Shown in pieces: positions 3,213-10,582 of a DNA stretch of 11,090 nt. The stretch lies in the NCBI GenBank assembly GCA_028702415.1, contig JAQVOT010000022.1, forward strand, positions 1-11,090. Reading direction: 5' to 3'. The position numbers and the translations under genes were made by a program. Below the pieces are notes generated by a model. It worked only from the letters and a program-made list of their open reading frames with translations, ran no database searches and was not told where the DNA came from. This stretch comes from Eubacteriales bacterium (GTDB lineage: Bacteria; Bacillota; Clostridia; Peptostreptococcales; Anaerovoracaceae). Position 1 is the first letter of the stretch, and the number at the start of each line of letters is the position of its first letter.

Positions 3213-4547
3213 TTAAAAGCCCTTGAACATCCTGTTCATCTTCGCCATCCCCTTAGGGTTCATCATCTGCTTCATCATTTTCCTCGATTCTTCATATCTC
3301 TTGATAAGCTGATTTATTTTCTGAACCGTCTGCCCGGATCCGGCGGCTATTCTCTTTCTTCTGCTGGCATTCAGCAGTTTCGGATCTTCTCTTTCTATCT
3401 TGGTCATGGACTGAATTATGGCTTCAAAGGCCACGAATTCTTTCTCGCTCTGTTCCATGTTCACATTCTTGTTGTTCGCCATCCCCGGAAGCATGTCCAG
3501 CATCTTGGCAATACCGCCCATGTTTCTTATCTGTCCCATCTGTTCGAGAAAATCTTCAAGAGTAAATTTGTTTTTCCTGATACGCTCTTCCAGGGCAGCG
3601 CTCTTTTCTTCATCGTAGTCCGTCTGAGCCTTCTCAATAAGTGAGAGCATGTCTCCCATACCGAGAATTCTGCTGGCCATTCTTTCAGGATGGAACTCGT
3701 CCAGTTCATCCATCTTTTCGCCCATGCCCACGAACTTTATGGGTCTGCCTGTTACCTTCTTTGTAGAAAGGGCCGCACCACCCCTGGAATCTCCGTCCAT
3801 CTTGGTCATGATGATCCCGTCAATTCCCAGAGCCTCGTTGAATCCTTCCGCCGCATTCACAGCATCCTGACCGGTGAGAGCGTCCACAACCAGCAGTATC
3901 TCATGAGGTCTGACTTCCTTCTTCAGCACCTTCAGCTCATCCATCAGCTCTTCGTCGATCTGCAAACGCCCCGCCGTGTCCACTATAAGAACGTTGAGAC
4001 CCTTTTTCTCAGCTTCACTTATGGCTGCTTTTGCGATCTTAGCCGGATCCTTGCAGTCACGCATGGTGAACACAGGAACATCTACGCTCCCTCCAACAAC
4101 CTCCAGCTGATCTATAGCTGCCGGTCTGTAGATGTCACAGGCACAGAGCATTGGTTTCTTACCATTGTTAACGAGCCATCTCGCCAGTTTACCGCATGTG
4201 GTGGTCTTACCGGTACCCTGAAGACCTACCATCATGTAGAAGGTGAATCCCTTCGGCGAGTAAGTCAGTTTGCTGCTGGTTCCTCCCATCAGCTCGATGA
4301 GTTCCTCATTGACGATCTTAATCACCTGCTGAGCGGGAGTCAGGCTCTTCATGACCTCTTCCCCAAGAGATTTTTCTTTGACCTCAGCCACGAACTCCTT
4401 AACAACCTTAAAGTTTACGTCAGCCTCCAGAAGTGCCAGTTTGACTTCTCTCATGGCCGCATTTATATCTGCTTCAGTAAGACTTCCCTTACCCTTCAGT
4501 CCCTTAAAGACCCCCTGCAGTTTGTCAGATAAACCTTCAAATGCCAT
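3213..4547 (-). CDS. ffh: signal recognition particle GTPase Ffh (SRP54)
   Basis: Ffh binds 4.5S/6S RNA and signal sequences of nascent chains and delivers ribosomes to FtsY at the membrane. The 444-aa protein has an N domain (about 1-90), a G domain with GLQGTGKT (108-115, P-loop), DTAGR (190-194), ALTGQD (223-228), TKMD (248-251) and DSRGG (253-257), and a methionine-rich M domain (about 325-444) with the RNA-binding RRKRIAAGSG segment (396-405) and a Met-rich C-terminus (KMMKQMM). All GTPase motifs are intact. Its ATG overlaps the ylxM stop by one base (TAATG). The ribosome binding site GGAGGAG lies in the last ylxM codons, which predicts translational coupling of the putative regulator and Ffh. 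Confidence 0.98.
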   Translation of the reverse strand: MAFEGLSDKLQGVFKGLKGKGSLTEADINAAMREVKLALLEADVNFKVVKEFVAEVKEKSLGEEVMKSLTPAQQVIKIVNEELIELMGGTSSKLTYSPKGFTFYMMVGLQGTGKTTTCGKLARWLVNNGKKPMLCACDIYRPAAIDQLEVVGGSVDVPVFTMRDCKDPAKIAKAAISEAEKKGLNVLIVDTAGRLQIDEELMDELKVLKKEVRPHEILLVVDALTGQDAVNAAEGFNEALGIDGIIMTKMDGDSRGGAALSTKKVTGRPIKFVGMGEKMDELDEFHPERMASRILGMGDMLSLIEKAQTDYDEEKSAALEERIRKNKFTLEDFLEQMGQIRNMGGIAKMLDMLPGMANNKNVNMEQSEKEFVAFEAIIQSMTKIEREDPKLLNASRRKRIAAGSGQTVQKINQLIKRYEESRKMMKQMMNPKGMAKMNRMFKGF

Positions 4548-8541: not shown

Positions 8542-8985
8542 TCATTTAAGGGATGATAAAAATTCTGTCATGTCTTCATCCTTAAGTGTGGCTATTCCAT
8601 TTTGTGACAGTATACTCTCCGCTTCCGCGATATCGTCAACCCTGAACACCACGTATGCGCTGTCTCGCATTGCCCCTGTGAAAGCGTAAACATACTCTAT
8701 GTTCACATTTGCCCCGGACAACACGTCGAGAATTTCTTTAAGGGCTCCGGAATGGTCCTCCATCTTCACCGCCACCACCGGCGTCTCTTTAATAATGATT
8801 TCCTTTCCCAGAGTCTCTTTTGCCTTTGCTACATCCGATACTATGAGCCTTAAAATGCCAAAATCTTTCGTCTCCGCCAGATTGAGCGCCCTTATATTGA
8901 TTCCGGCTTCCGTAATCGATGTTATTGCCTCTGCCAGCTTTCCCGGCTTATTTTCCAGAAATGCCGATATCTGTGTAATTGCCAT
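8542..8985 (-). CDS. tandem-ACT-domain amino-acid-binding protein
   Basis: A 147-aa protein made of two ACT domains and nothing else: ACT 1 at about 3-68 (ISAFLENKPGKLAEAITSI with NIRALNLAE) and ACT 2 at about 73-140 (VVAVKMEDHSGALKEILDVL with NIEYVYAF). ACT pairs bind amino acids at their interface and act as allosteric sensors. Genes of this type sit next to paaK in many anaerobes, often with indolepyruvate:ferredoxin oxidoreductase genes, which are not in this window. Sensing of an aromatic amino acid or aryl-acid is inferred, not shown. The ATG at 8985 is chosen because GGGAGGT lies 6 nt before it; the upstream in-frame ATG at 9000 is itself 5' of that site. It follows paaK by 52 nt without a terminator, so both are under the Phe-leader control. 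Confidence 0.9.
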   Translation of the reverse strand: MAITQISAFLENKPGKLAEAITSITEAGINIRALNLAETKDFGILRLIVSDVAKAKETLGKEIIIKETPVVAVKMEDHSGALKEILDVLSGANVNIEYVYAFTGAMRDSAYVVFRVDDIAEAESILSQNGIATLKDEDMTEFLSSLK

Positions 8986-9037
8986 GGTTTTACCTCCCAT
9001 ATAATCTGTTTCTTATCAATAATAAAAGTGTTTTTCA

Positions 9038-10342
9038 TCAAACCAGCTTACGTTTATCAATTACCCGCACCGCTTTTCCTTCTGAGCGAACTATGGACTT
9101 CGGAGCCACAAGGTGAATCTTCGGGTCAATTCCAAGCATGGATCGCATGGCCGAACTGAGCTTATGCTCGCTCTGTTGAATTTCTGCTATCTTATCAGAG
9201 AAGACCTCCGGTGAAAATTCCACATAGATGTCAAATGTATCTGAATTGTTCACTCTGTCCACCACGATCTGGTAGTTTGGTGTGAATCCTTCTTTTAACA
9301 GCACCGCTTCTATCTGACTTGGGAATACGTTGACACCCCTAATGATCATCATGTCATCGCTTCTTCCCAGCGGTTTAGTCATTTTAACATGAGTTCTCCC
9401 GCAAGAACACTTTTCTCTTGACAAAATGCATATATCCTTTGTTCTGTATCTGAGAAGTGGGAAACCCTCTTTATCCAGGGATGTGAACACCAGCTCCCCC
9501 TTTTCTCCTTCCGGCAGCACCTCTCCTGTTTCAGGGTCTATGATCTCAGCATAGAAATGATCCTCATTGATGTGCATTCCATGCTGTTCTTCACACTCAA
9601 AGGATACTCCGGGACCGGACAGTTCTGTAAGCCCATAAATATCATAGGCCTTGATGCCCAGACTTTTTTCAATTCCCTCCCGCATTTCCCGGGTCCAGGG
9701 TTCTGCACCGAAGATCCCCGCCTTGAGCTTGTTGTCTTCGGGACGGTATCCCTGTTCCGCAAGGGTCTCCCCTATGTAAGCCGCATAGGAAGGAGTGCAG
9801 CAGAGGATGGTGGCATTCAAATCTATCATGAATTGAATCTGCCTGTCGGTATTTCCTGATGACATGGGAAGAGTCAAGCATCCCACCTTGTGGGAACCGC
9901 CGTTTAATCCCGGCCCTCCCGTGAACAATCCGTAACCGTAGCATATCTGGCACACTTCCTCATCAGTGCCTCCGGCTGCCACTATCGCACGGGCACAGCA
10001 CTCTTCCCACATGTCGATATCCTTCTGGGTATAGAAGGCCACCACCCTTTTCCCTGTGGTTCCTGAAGTGGATTGAATTCGCACGCAGTTTTTAATATCC
10101 GTTCCCAGAAGACCATATGGGTATGCTTCCCTCAAGTCGTCCTTGGTAAGAAATGGCAGTTTTTTTATATCATCTACGCTTTTTATATCTTCAGGCGTAA
10201 GCCCCTTCTTTTCCATGAGGTTTCTGTAATAGGGCACATTGTCATAGACATGCTTTACCTGTTTTACGATCTTCTCATTTTGAATCTCCAAAATCCGCTC
10301 CCTGGAAGCAGTTTCGATCTCCGGTTGATAGTAGTTTTTCAT
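9038..10342 (-). CDS. paaK: phenylacetate-CoA ligase family enzyme (PaaK-like)
   Basis: A 434-aa cytosolic adenylate-forming enzyme that would convert an aryl-acetate, ATP and CoA to the aryl-acetyl-CoA, AMP and PPi. Residues from the ATG at 10342: nucleotide loop QSTSGTTGK (90-98), YGLTE (236-240), RYRTKDI (298-304), the CSCGRTH cysteine motif usual for PaaK (about 312-318), GRSDDM (326-331), and the C-terminal catalytic lysine in EGKAVRV (about Lys423). The length is normal. AGGAGAGGA lies just upstream of the ATG. The longer frame from 10396 would start inside the terminator and is rejected. Substrate (phenylacetate, indoleacetate, hydroxyphenylacetate or similar) is not fixed by sequence. 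The Phe-codon leader suggests a role in Phe synthesis by reductive carboxylation rather than aerobic degradation; no other paa genes are present. Confidence 0.93.
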   Translation of the reverse strand: MKNYYQPEIETASRERILEIQNEKIVKQVKHVYDNVPYYRNLMEKKGLTPEDIKSVDDIKKLPFLTKDDLREAYPYGLLGTDIKNCVRIQSTSGTTGKRVVAFYTQKDIDMWEECCARAIVAAGGTDEEVCQICYGYGLFTGGPGLNGGSHKVGCLTLPMSSGNTDRQIQFMIDLNATILCCTPSYAAYIGETLAEQGYRPEDNKLKAGIFGAEPWTREMREGIEKSLGIKAYDIYGLTELSGPGVSFECEEQHGMHINEDHFYAEIIDPETGEVLPEGEKGELVFTSLDKEGFPLLRYRTKDICILSREKCSCGRTHVKMTKPLGRSDDMMIIRGVNVFPSQIEAVLLKEGFTPNYQIVVDRVNNSDTFDIYVEFSPEVFSDKIAEIQQSEHKLSSAMRSMLGIDPKIHLVAPKSIVRSEGKAVRVIDKRKLV

Positions 10343-10363: not shown

Positions 10364-10397
10364 AAAAAAAGTGTGGCACCGGTTGAAGTGCCACACT
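10364..10397 (-). terminator. attenuator terminator in the paaK leader
   Basis: Minus-strand AGTGTGGCAC (10397-10388), loop TTCAACCG, GTGCCACACT (10379-10370) gives a 10-bp stem. T10370 begins an uninterrupted T7 run (10370-10364). The paaK ribosome binding site begins about ten bases later, so this hairpin terminates transcription before paaK unless an alternative fold forms. It lies 34 nt after the stop of the Phe leader ORF. Confidence 0.92.
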
Positions 10398-10500
10398 CTG
10401 TGTGAACTATATTACTCATCCCTTCACACATTTAGCATAACAAACCAACCTTACCGTTTTCGCCGGTAAAGCTAAAGAAAAAGCTAAAGTTAAATGTGAA
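10381..10500 (-). promoter_or_regulatory. Phe attenuator: competing RNA segments (protector, antiterminator)
   Basis: Segment 1 (10500-10491, inside Phe codons 7-10) pairs with segment 2: CACAUUUA (10498-10491) with UAAAUGUG (10434-10427), 8 bp. Segment 2 (10450-10423) pairs with segment 3 (10406-10381) as an imperfect hairpin of 23 bp: GGUUGG with UCAACC, nine pairs (four G-U) between 10442-10434 and 10397-10389, and UGUGUGAA with UUCACACA. Segment 3 includes the whole left arm and most of the loop of the terminator, so this fold excludes termination. A ribosome stalled at the Phe codons (10500-10468) covers segment 1 and leaves segment 2 free; one reaching the stop codon (10434-10432) covers segment 2. 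This matches trp-type logic: on when Phe-tRNA is scarce. A further small hairpin UUACCG/CGGUAA lies at 10469-10451. Pairings were found by hand, without energy calculation. Confidence 0.75.
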
Positions 10501-10518
10501 GTTCTGATTGTTTTTCAT
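10432..10518 (-). CDS. Phe-rich leader peptide (28 aa) controlling paaK
   Basis: A 28-codon ORF beginning MKNNQ with the core NFTFNFSFFFSF (residues 6-17): seven Phe codons (five TTT, two TTC) within residues 7-17, followed by TGENGKVGLLC and a TAA stop. A GGGAG ribosome binding site lies 9 nt before the ATG, and the promoter upstream predicts that the ORF lies near the 5' end of the mRNA. Size, Phe clustering and position ahead of a terminator match leader peptides such as E. coli PheL, with no homology implied. Its job is presumably not the peptide but ribosome stalling when charged tRNA-Phe is limiting. It would be missed by standard gene callers. Confidence 0.85.
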   Translation of the reverse strand: MKNNQNFTFNFSFFFSFTGENGKVGLLC

Positions 10519-10553
10519 CAAAAATATCTCCCGACTGCAATTACTTTAGGGTA

Positions 10554-10582
10554 ATAGTATAGTAAAAGCTTTTAACTGTCAA
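10554..10582 (-). promoter_or_regulatory. promoter of the Phe leader-paaK-ACT operon
   Basis: Perfect -35 TTGACA (10582-10577) with -10 TACTAT at 17-nt spacing (10559-10554) or the better box TATACT at 15 nt (10561-10556). The -35 covers the last sense codons of the PAP2 gene, and its stop codon lies in the spacer. The spacer also holds the 12-bp perfect palindrome TAAAAGCTTTTA (10563-10574). Predicted start is about 10547, roughly 30 nt before the leader ATG. Confidence 0.8.

Follow-up and report, generated by a model that had tools for sequence, protein, structure and literature searches.

The pheL/pheA and pheM/pheST attenuators of Enterobacteria combine a leader ORF containing Phe codons with a four-segment RNA pairing and a terminator. 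The leader upstream of paaK analyzed in this work resembles them in its Phe-codon ORF, its alternative four-segment pairing, its terminator and its polarity; unlike pheL and pheM, the leaders found in Clostridia match no Rfam family, many of them share the core GGTTRATTTGC-RTGC in segment 2, and their targets are paaK, symporter-paaK, ior, and aroF.

Leader-peptide attenuation of amino acid genes is also a feature of the histidine leaders of Firmicutes (PMC2965389, PMC9413887), which are Gram-positives, Clostridia included (17 genomes in PMC9413887); those leaders carry His codons and precede his or hisS genes, whereas the ones described here carry aromatic codons and precede arylacetate or aromatic amino acid genes. 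The uORFC-13-1 motif, reported in PMC8632094 only from Acholeplasma and environmental sequences and exclusively upstream of aroF, with attenuation as the proposed mode of control, is similar in that an ORF containing one or more Phe codons and an adjoining terminator precede aroF; its reported restriction to Acholeplasma, environmental sequences and aroF sets it apart. The Leu/phe leader RF01743, assigned to Lactococcus lactis only in a table of PMC2864571, is likewise a candidate Leu/Phe leader RNA of a Firmicute; RF01743 gave no match in the window or in 14 leader-bearing sources.

Among the titles and passages listed in searches of open-access PMC, none dealt with control of paaK or ior by a leader peptide, or with aromatic leader peptides in Clostridia. 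An earlier note on this DNA knew of no described Phe leader on paaK. The class of mechanism is an old, classical one, and the RNA family and its paaK and ior targets appear to be new.

The leader region upstream of paaK

The window, i.e., the whole stretch of 11,090 nucleotides analyzed, harbors the leader-region features listed in Table 1. The paaK product reaches 506.7 bits against the NCBIfam model TIGR02155, under the cut-off of 646.3; for this reason, we refer to it as a PaaK-type arylacetate-CoA ligase. Among solved structures, phenylacetate-CoA ligases are its closest relatives, 4r1l being the best (E 5e-124). The adjacent ACT gene is probably co-transcribed with paaK.

Table 1. Features of the paaK leader region (positions in the window) and T-boxes upstream of other paaK genes (positions in the locus named).
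Feature	Position	Strand	Remarks
ACT-domain-pair protein beside paaK	8542..8988	minus	Pfam PF19571 ACT_8, E 1e-21
paaK, PaaK-type arylacetate-CoA ligase, 434 aa	9038..10342	minus	Pfam PF00501, PF14535
Intrinsic terminator (3:4), 10-bp stem and T7	10364..10397	minus	
Segment 3, terminator left arm and loop	10381..10396	minus	Predicted antiterminator partner of 10450-10435
Apical hairpin TGTGTGAA...TTCACACA capping the 2:3 helix	10399..10430	minus	10430-10423 with 10406-10399
Leader ORF, 28 codons and TAA, MKNNQNFTFNFSFFFSFTGENGKVGLLC	10432..10518	minus	ATG at 10518, TAA ending at 10432
Segment 2, abutting the leader stop codon	10435..10456	minus	10456-10445 with segment 1; 10450-10435 with segment 3
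Segment 1, codons 15-19 (F S F T G)	10464..10475	minus	Pairs with 10456-10445
Shine-Dalgarno GGGAG of the leader ORF	10528..10532	minus	9 nt upstream of ATG
Promoter-like site TTGACA-17-TACTAT	10554..10582	minus	10 of 12 matches
T-box, L017	2094-2346	minus	Rfam model
T-box, L026	2415-2645	minus	Rfam model
T-box, L029	900-1133		Rfam model
T-box, L050	739-984		Rfam model
T-box, L053	4676-4918		Rfam model

The earlier note had described a 28-codon ORF with its own ribosome binding site, seven Phe codons within 11 residues, and a 10-bp terminator hairpin with T7 followed by paaK. All of this can be read directly from the sequence, and coordinates and codon count are correct: Phe occupies residues 7, 9, 11, 13, 14, 15, and 17 of the leader peptide, the terminator consists of AGTGTGGCAC (10397-10388), a loop, GTGCCACACT (10379-10370) and the T-run at 10370-10364, and a second Shine-Dalgarno sequence stands between it and the paaK ATG at 10342. 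The structure of the leader transcript exceeds that of shuffled sequences (z -4.9; 0/200 as good). Such a density of Phe codons is rare: at least 7 Phe in 11 residues occurred in one of the 10,547 ORFs of 15-45 aa found in 708,431 bases from 73 other paaK loci, a background from which the paaK loci with a known leader were left out.

The promoter-like site proves nothing alone, a scan for sites of this type having returned 5 against a shuffle mean of 5.0; in the four closest relatives (see below), TTGAC-type sites precede the leader ATG by 85-114 nt, compared with 64 nt in the window. Purine-rich sites ahead of the leader ATG were recognized by eye in the same four relatives.

Predicted RNA folds and the proposed switch

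According to the earlier note, segment 2 (taken as 10450-10423) can pair with 10406-10381, and segment 1, within the Phe codons, can pair with segment 2. When 10450-10381 is folded, the former pairing is the structure of lowest energy (-23.8 kcal/mol, z -4.06, none of 200 shuffles as good). The latter (10475-10464 with 10456-10445) is present in the fold of 10478-10364, where the 1:2 helix and the terminator form together (-42.9, z -4.53). The part of segment 2 that pairs with segment 3, 10450-10435, corresponds to codons 23-28 of the leader ORF. The apical hairpin occupies the same place in the predicted folds of the four closest relatives, with different sequences.

The effect of a stalled ribosome was modeled by removing the RNA it would cover, assumed to reach at most 15 nt, counted from the first base of the A-site codon; the remainder was folded as far as the last base of segment 3. 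The antiterminator formed (-24.0) when codon 15 or 17 occupied the A-site; with codon 7 or 13 it formed beside a shortened 1:2 hairpin, and with codon 9 or 11 the 1:2 helix was largely kept and 2:3 was shortened, so that the later Phe codons would have to do most of the work. With a ribosome at the stop codon the antiterminator is impossible and only the terminator folds. In the presence of segment 4, the equilibrium favors the terminator in every case, including that of a stalled ribosome (-30.6 versus about -24); readthrough would therefore have to be kinetic.

On this basis, the following switch can be depicted. With sufficient charged Phe-tRNA, the ribosome would reach the leader stop codon and cover segment 2, and the terminator would form before paaK. 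With charged Phe-tRNA in short supply, it would stall on the Phe codons and cover segment 1, leaving segment 2 to pair with segment 3, i.e., with the left arm and loop of the terminator, and RNA polymerase would continue into paaK and probably also into the ACT gene. Without translation, 1:2 and 3:4 would form and transcription would end.

A leader ORF with control codons, a terminator, a 1:2 helix and a 2:3 antiterminator with covariation are all present. Judging from these sequence features, the region is very probably a ribosome-mediated, Phe-codon-dependent transcription attenuator; its tRNA signal, kinetics and physiology are the parts that we infer.

Conservation among paaK leaders

The closest relatives of the window's PaaK (L031-L034, 88-89% identity) are the top four among the best 80 of 591 relatives; two of the four record titles name red deer and reindeer. 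Each of them harbors a Phe-rich leader ending in KV.LLC or RV.LLC, plus a terminator, and in the alignment of the five leaders the Phe-codon ORFs and the compensatory changes that the earlier note had proposed to look for were both present. Helix 1:2 is paired in 60/60 cells with two compensatory pairs, a score reached by 29/500 shuffles, and helix 3:4 in 49/50 cells with three compensatory pairs (8/500 shuffles). In helix 2:3, 68/70 cells are paired and one pair is compensatory; 51/500 shuffles reach its score, 351/500 its two-sided pairs and 500/500 its pair types, so that the 2:3 covariation of the five paaK leaders alone is weak. Conservation of 1:2, 2:3, and 3:4 with compensatory changes nevertheless supports the complete four-segment architecture of the trp/pheL type that the earlier note had claimed. 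As for induction by shortage of Phe-tRNA, its structural parts are borne out by the comparative data; the tRNA signal itself is inferred.

A sixth Phe-rich leader, MRYGHDLNNGFGFMFSFVRFTWDKVDLLCRNV, containing KVDLLC, was found in a genome of another family (G642; L230, L253), ahead of a paaK with 88% identity to that of the window. A DNA-similarity search with the leader in 197 genomes returned itself and only six short, weak matches, because the leaders diverge too fast for such a search. Moreover, the 400 nt or 350 nt upstream of paaK that were extracted are too short for leaders located further up; those ahead of a symporter gene, or behind the longer gap in L032, were recovered by covariance models. 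In L031, a long inverted repeat around GAAAGATTCAATTCTTTC and its complement (about 1894-2085) lies between the terminator and paaK.

The C-terminal KV.LLC or RV.LLC kept in the five paaK leaders is what a TnaC-like nascent-peptide arrest would lead one to expect, i.e., a leader peptide sensing an aromatic compound and stalling at this motif. The same nucleotides are kept, however, where the ORF ends earlier (L166, L168; also L199 and L219, with a related core), which argues for conservation of RNA pairing and not of the peptide, and the type of aromatic codon shifts with the downstream pathway (see below); peptide arrest is therefore very unlikely compared with codon-dependent attenuation.

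A wider family of aromatic leaders

Two covariance models were built, containing helices 1:2 and 3:4 only: R1 from the five paaK leaders and R2 from 22 leaders. In the family of the window, R1 matched 21/349 genomes at E<=0.02 and R2 63/349 at E<=0.01; R2 also matched 44 of 393 genomes in the order, with a best match outside the family at E 7e-4, and 46 of 391 in the class. Not all these matches are true, and part of them were inspected. Convincing aromatic leaders were seen at 3/10 loci in one batch, at 19/22 in another (L179 undecided), at 22/24 in a third, and at 17/18 in a class-wide batch from 11 families other than that of the window, "judged real" meaning that an aromatic-rich ORF was seen by eye, in a set that was not blind and from which L160 and hits without a locus were left out. 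The weak matches rejected on inspection were L153, L154, L156-L159, and L161 in the 10-locus batch, L180 and L181 in the 22-locus batch, L211 and L215 in the 24-locus batch, and L247 in the class-wide one. Some leaders or genomes are near-identical (L163-L170; L182 and L183).

Targets were named from the N-terminal sequence, except where a domain search is mentioned. They include symporter-paaK (L162-L170, L176, L198), iorA (L202, L212), aroF, often with tyrA after it, pheA (L155, L178, L231), and a TrpB-like enzyme (L152, L182, L183). Domain search gave the gene order leader-aroF-tyrA-aroB-aroA-aroC-pheA in L226 and leader-iorA-iorB-paaK-ACT-symporter in L223; L224 shows the latter order by position only. 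Three further targets were confirmed in the same way: the symporter (L228), the TrpB-like enzyme (L225), and aroF (L227). In all the symporter cases checked, paaK lies on the contig of the leader, except for G019, where the contig ends inside the symporter gene. A scan for Phe-rich ORFs around iorA and prephenate dehydratase genes retrieved no convincing leader on iorA of the genomes with a paaK leader; its Phe-only threshold missed the Tyr/Phe pheA leader of G254 (L155), found later.

According to these sequence comparisons, the paaK leader belongs to a putative family of aromatic leaders that extends across the class Clostridia.

Some arrangements were noticed in addition. L226 (G036:C1:103900-113500) looks like an apparently complete Phe/Tyr operon with a single attenuator. 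The leader of the TrpB-like gene of L225 (126-1499, minus strand), at G003:C12:12208-12343 (minus strand), points away from the symporter-paaK leader that this contig also carries. In L231, from another family, the leader MIQLSLVFAFIYFYFYFYFINEVRVICDANNR directly precedes a chorismate mutase/prephenate dehydratase-like gene, followed by an aroB-like one (by eye). Lastly, L048 carries at 3304-3428 a mixed Phe/Tyr/Trp leader (FYWFWFSF) before a gene starting with MYLL, about 1.6 kb before paaK.

The aromatic codons were counted in 47 leaders, the class-wide batch of 18 loci being left out. The leaders on paaK alone contain 31 Phe, 3 Tyr, and 1 Trp (5 leaders), those on symporter-paaK 33 Phe, 43 Tyr, and 4 Trp (11 leaders), and those on iorA 6 Phe and 9 Tyr (2 leaders); the counts are 120 Phe, 90 Tyr, and 6 Trp for aroF (25 leaders), 11 Phe and 4 Tyr for pheA (2 leaders), and 5 Phe, 3 Tyr, and 4 Trp for the trpB-like gene (2 leaders). 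A Trp-rich YWWWRSF is found in the trpB-like leaders L182 and L183. The aromatic codon content of the leaders thus tracks the downstream pathway.

Cognate pairing of segments 2 and 3

The 2:3 helix was tested on the 67 leaders judged real (65 distinct), using a fixed 40-base window for segment 2, with no motif, and a terminator left arm and loop located independently of segment 2. Cognate duplexes averaged -14.42 kcal/mol versus -10.08 for non-cognate ones (65 distinct leaders), and none of 20,000 permutations was as good as the cognate mean (best -11.52), a count that is not a strict probability because the leaders are related. Twenty-nine of the 65 cognates fell in the best tenth, the window ranking 4th, and five (L205, L233, L234, L237, L244) were worse than the median of the other arms. 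This fixed-window test on 65 distinct leaders is the one to rely on.

A motif-based version with segment 3 defined from the terminator alone gave -12.56 versus -8.55 and again 0/20,000 on 47 leaders (40 distinct), a set holding 16/19, 11/22, and 10/17 of the accepted leaders of the 22-locus, 24-locus, and class-wide batches, respectively. From these 47, 31 distinct leaders were retained, after dropping duplicates or near-duplicates (L163, L164, L166-L170, L219, L234) as well as L216, L231, L232, L235, L236, L238, and L155, and after swapping the segment chosen by the script for L031 with the in-register one; in this set, pairs 3-6 are formed in every leader, and each of them occurs in three or four pair types. 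When every distinct segment-2 hexamer is represented by a single leader (15 leaders), 136/150 cells pair, the best of 10,000 shuffles reaching 123. An earlier pairing test on 23 leaders included near-identical ones, and a test with segment 3 picked for best pairing is biased.

These data also bear on chance as an explanation, namely a spurious Phe-rich ORF near an ordinary terminator. T-rich DNA does encode Phe, and a few Phe residues are nothing unusual in a short AT-rich ORF; nevertheless, the single ORF out of 10,547 with 7 Phe in 11, the permutations reported above, and the leader and compensatory helices kept in the four closest relatives make it extremely improbable that the attenuator is such an artifact.

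T-boxes upstream of paaK

The earlier note had stated that Firmicutes mostly use T-boxes for such genes. This holds for paaK in some other Clostridia and not for the locus under study: Rfam T-boxes precede paaK by 119 nt in L017, 108 nt in L050, and 83 nt in L053, and by the longer distances of 462 nt in L026 and 368 nt in L029, whereas the same model retrieved none in the window or in L031-L034. The Rfam search covered the paaK loci other than L056-L110; a T-box signature scan of 80 paaK loci, which undercounts, added L079, L082, and L095 as candidates and missed L050 and L053. All five Rfam T-boxes, read against the model, have UUC (Phe) at the presumed specifier position, placed according to T-box anatomy.

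Like the paaK leader, these T-boxes share the target gene, the presumed signal (Phe-tRNA) and the polarity; unlike it, they bind tRNA directly, lack a leader peptide, and have an unrelated sequence and structure. A UUC T-box on paaK would presumably be a second, unrelated Phe-tRNA sensor with the same logic, and two unrelated sensors on one gene support that logic.

The occurrence of T-boxes on paaK in those five loci could suggest a T-box in the window, too, or else some other riboswitch that binds tRNA or a metabolite. No Rfam family reached the gathering score in the window and 14 leader-bearing sources, the best weak match to the leader being L20_leader (E 1.4), and, with T-boxes lacking in the window and L031-L034, this possibility is hardly credible beside the ribosome-mediated attenuator. 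On the leader and RNA evidence, nascent-peptide arrest, a T-box in the window, and chance were all considered and rejected.

A probable biosynthetic role of PaaK

If PaaK is biosynthetic, phenylacetate would be converted to phenylacetyl-CoA by PaaK, then to phenylpyruvate by an indolepyruvate:ferredoxin oxidoreductase (IOR) run reductively, and finally to Phe. Attenuators of the polarity proposed here serve biosynthesis, and a biosynthetic target would explain it. The putative attenuation of paaK and ior by Phe and Tyr codons suggests that PaaK and IOR probably run towards Phe. A synthesis of Phe from phenylacetate in rumen fermentation is mentioned in PMC7356843, citing Allison 1965; PMC13285125 reports a Bacteroides IOR beside an arylacetate-CoA ligase, suggests a biosynthetic role, and argues that an AMP-forming ligase beside IOR points to biosynthesis; and PMC4162585 cites Porat et al. 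for a second aromatic pathway of Methanococcus maripaludis that is fed by aryl acids. In the literature searched, genes or control for the formation of Phe from phenylacetate in Clostridia were not named.

Of the 49 genomes searched in the genus, 46 have IOR alpha (E<=1e-30), 39 have chorismate synthase, and 22 have prephenate dehydratase. The last enzyme was found in 2/12 genomes with a leader on paaK or symporter-paaK (G000, G003, G006, G007, G013, G014, G015, G019, G020, G342, G345, G348) and in 9/10 with a leader on aroF (G008, G018, G021, G022, G026, G030, G036, G339, G344, G350), with a Fisher p of 0.002 that is uncorrected for kinship and incomplete assemblies; chorismate synthase is present in 11 of the former 12. 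The two of these 12 that do have prephenate dehydratase count against a replacement pattern. Outside the genus the pattern is looser, prephenate dehydratase being present in G253, G254, and G256 and not in G255 among the genomes searched that have a leader on paaK. Furthermore, the window's genome (89.66% complete) yielded neither prephenate dehydratase nor a full IOR alpha, and the missing IOR alpha is a gap in the biosynthetic argument.

An ACT gene similar to that of the window follows paaK in L223 (domain search) and in L224, L225, L228, and L230 (position and N-terminal sequence only); a PF19571 ACT-pair protein after paaK was a feature of the operons inspected.

A real attenuator could also precede a catabolic PaaK handling phenylacetate from Phe fermentation, and PMC13285125 does involve IOR in the conversion of Phe to phenylacetate in Bacteroides thetaiotaomicron. 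However, switching on at Phe-tRNA shortage would be the wrong time for a degradation gene, the same leader family stands on aroF, pheA, and a trpB-like gene, UUC-reading T-boxes precede paaK elsewhere, and the authors of PMC13285125 read an AMP-forming ligase next to IOR as a sign of biosynthesis. We consider a catabolic PaaK unlikely, and the biosynthetic PaaK, making Phe from phenylacetate, quite probable; the T-boxes on paaK have raised our confidence in it slightly, from a level already well above even. PaaK and IOR together probably make Phe from phenylacetate.

Implications for aromatic amino acid biosynthesis in Clostridia

Taken as a whole, it is likely that Clostridia possess class-wide aromatic leader-peptide attenuators with a common core RNA, which in gut members stand on paaK, symporter-paaK, and iorAB-paaK because PaaK and IOR form a dedicated biosynthetic route able to replace prephenate dehydratase, and that Phe T-boxes do the same on paaK elsewhere. 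A large leader-RNA family absent from Rfam is thereby suggested; in this group, T-boxes would be the usual expectation.

If this is true, the codons of a leader (Phe alone, Tyr and Phe, or Trp) would reveal the amino acid made by its operon and would thus indicate the substrate of an uncharacterized ligase or transporter. The Phe- and Tyr-codon attenuators on paaK and on the ior-paaK-ACT-symporter operon would, moreover, supply candidate genes for the rumen reaction reported in 1965, and would point to the biosynthetic direction that PMC13285125 leaves as a suggestion for Bacteroides.
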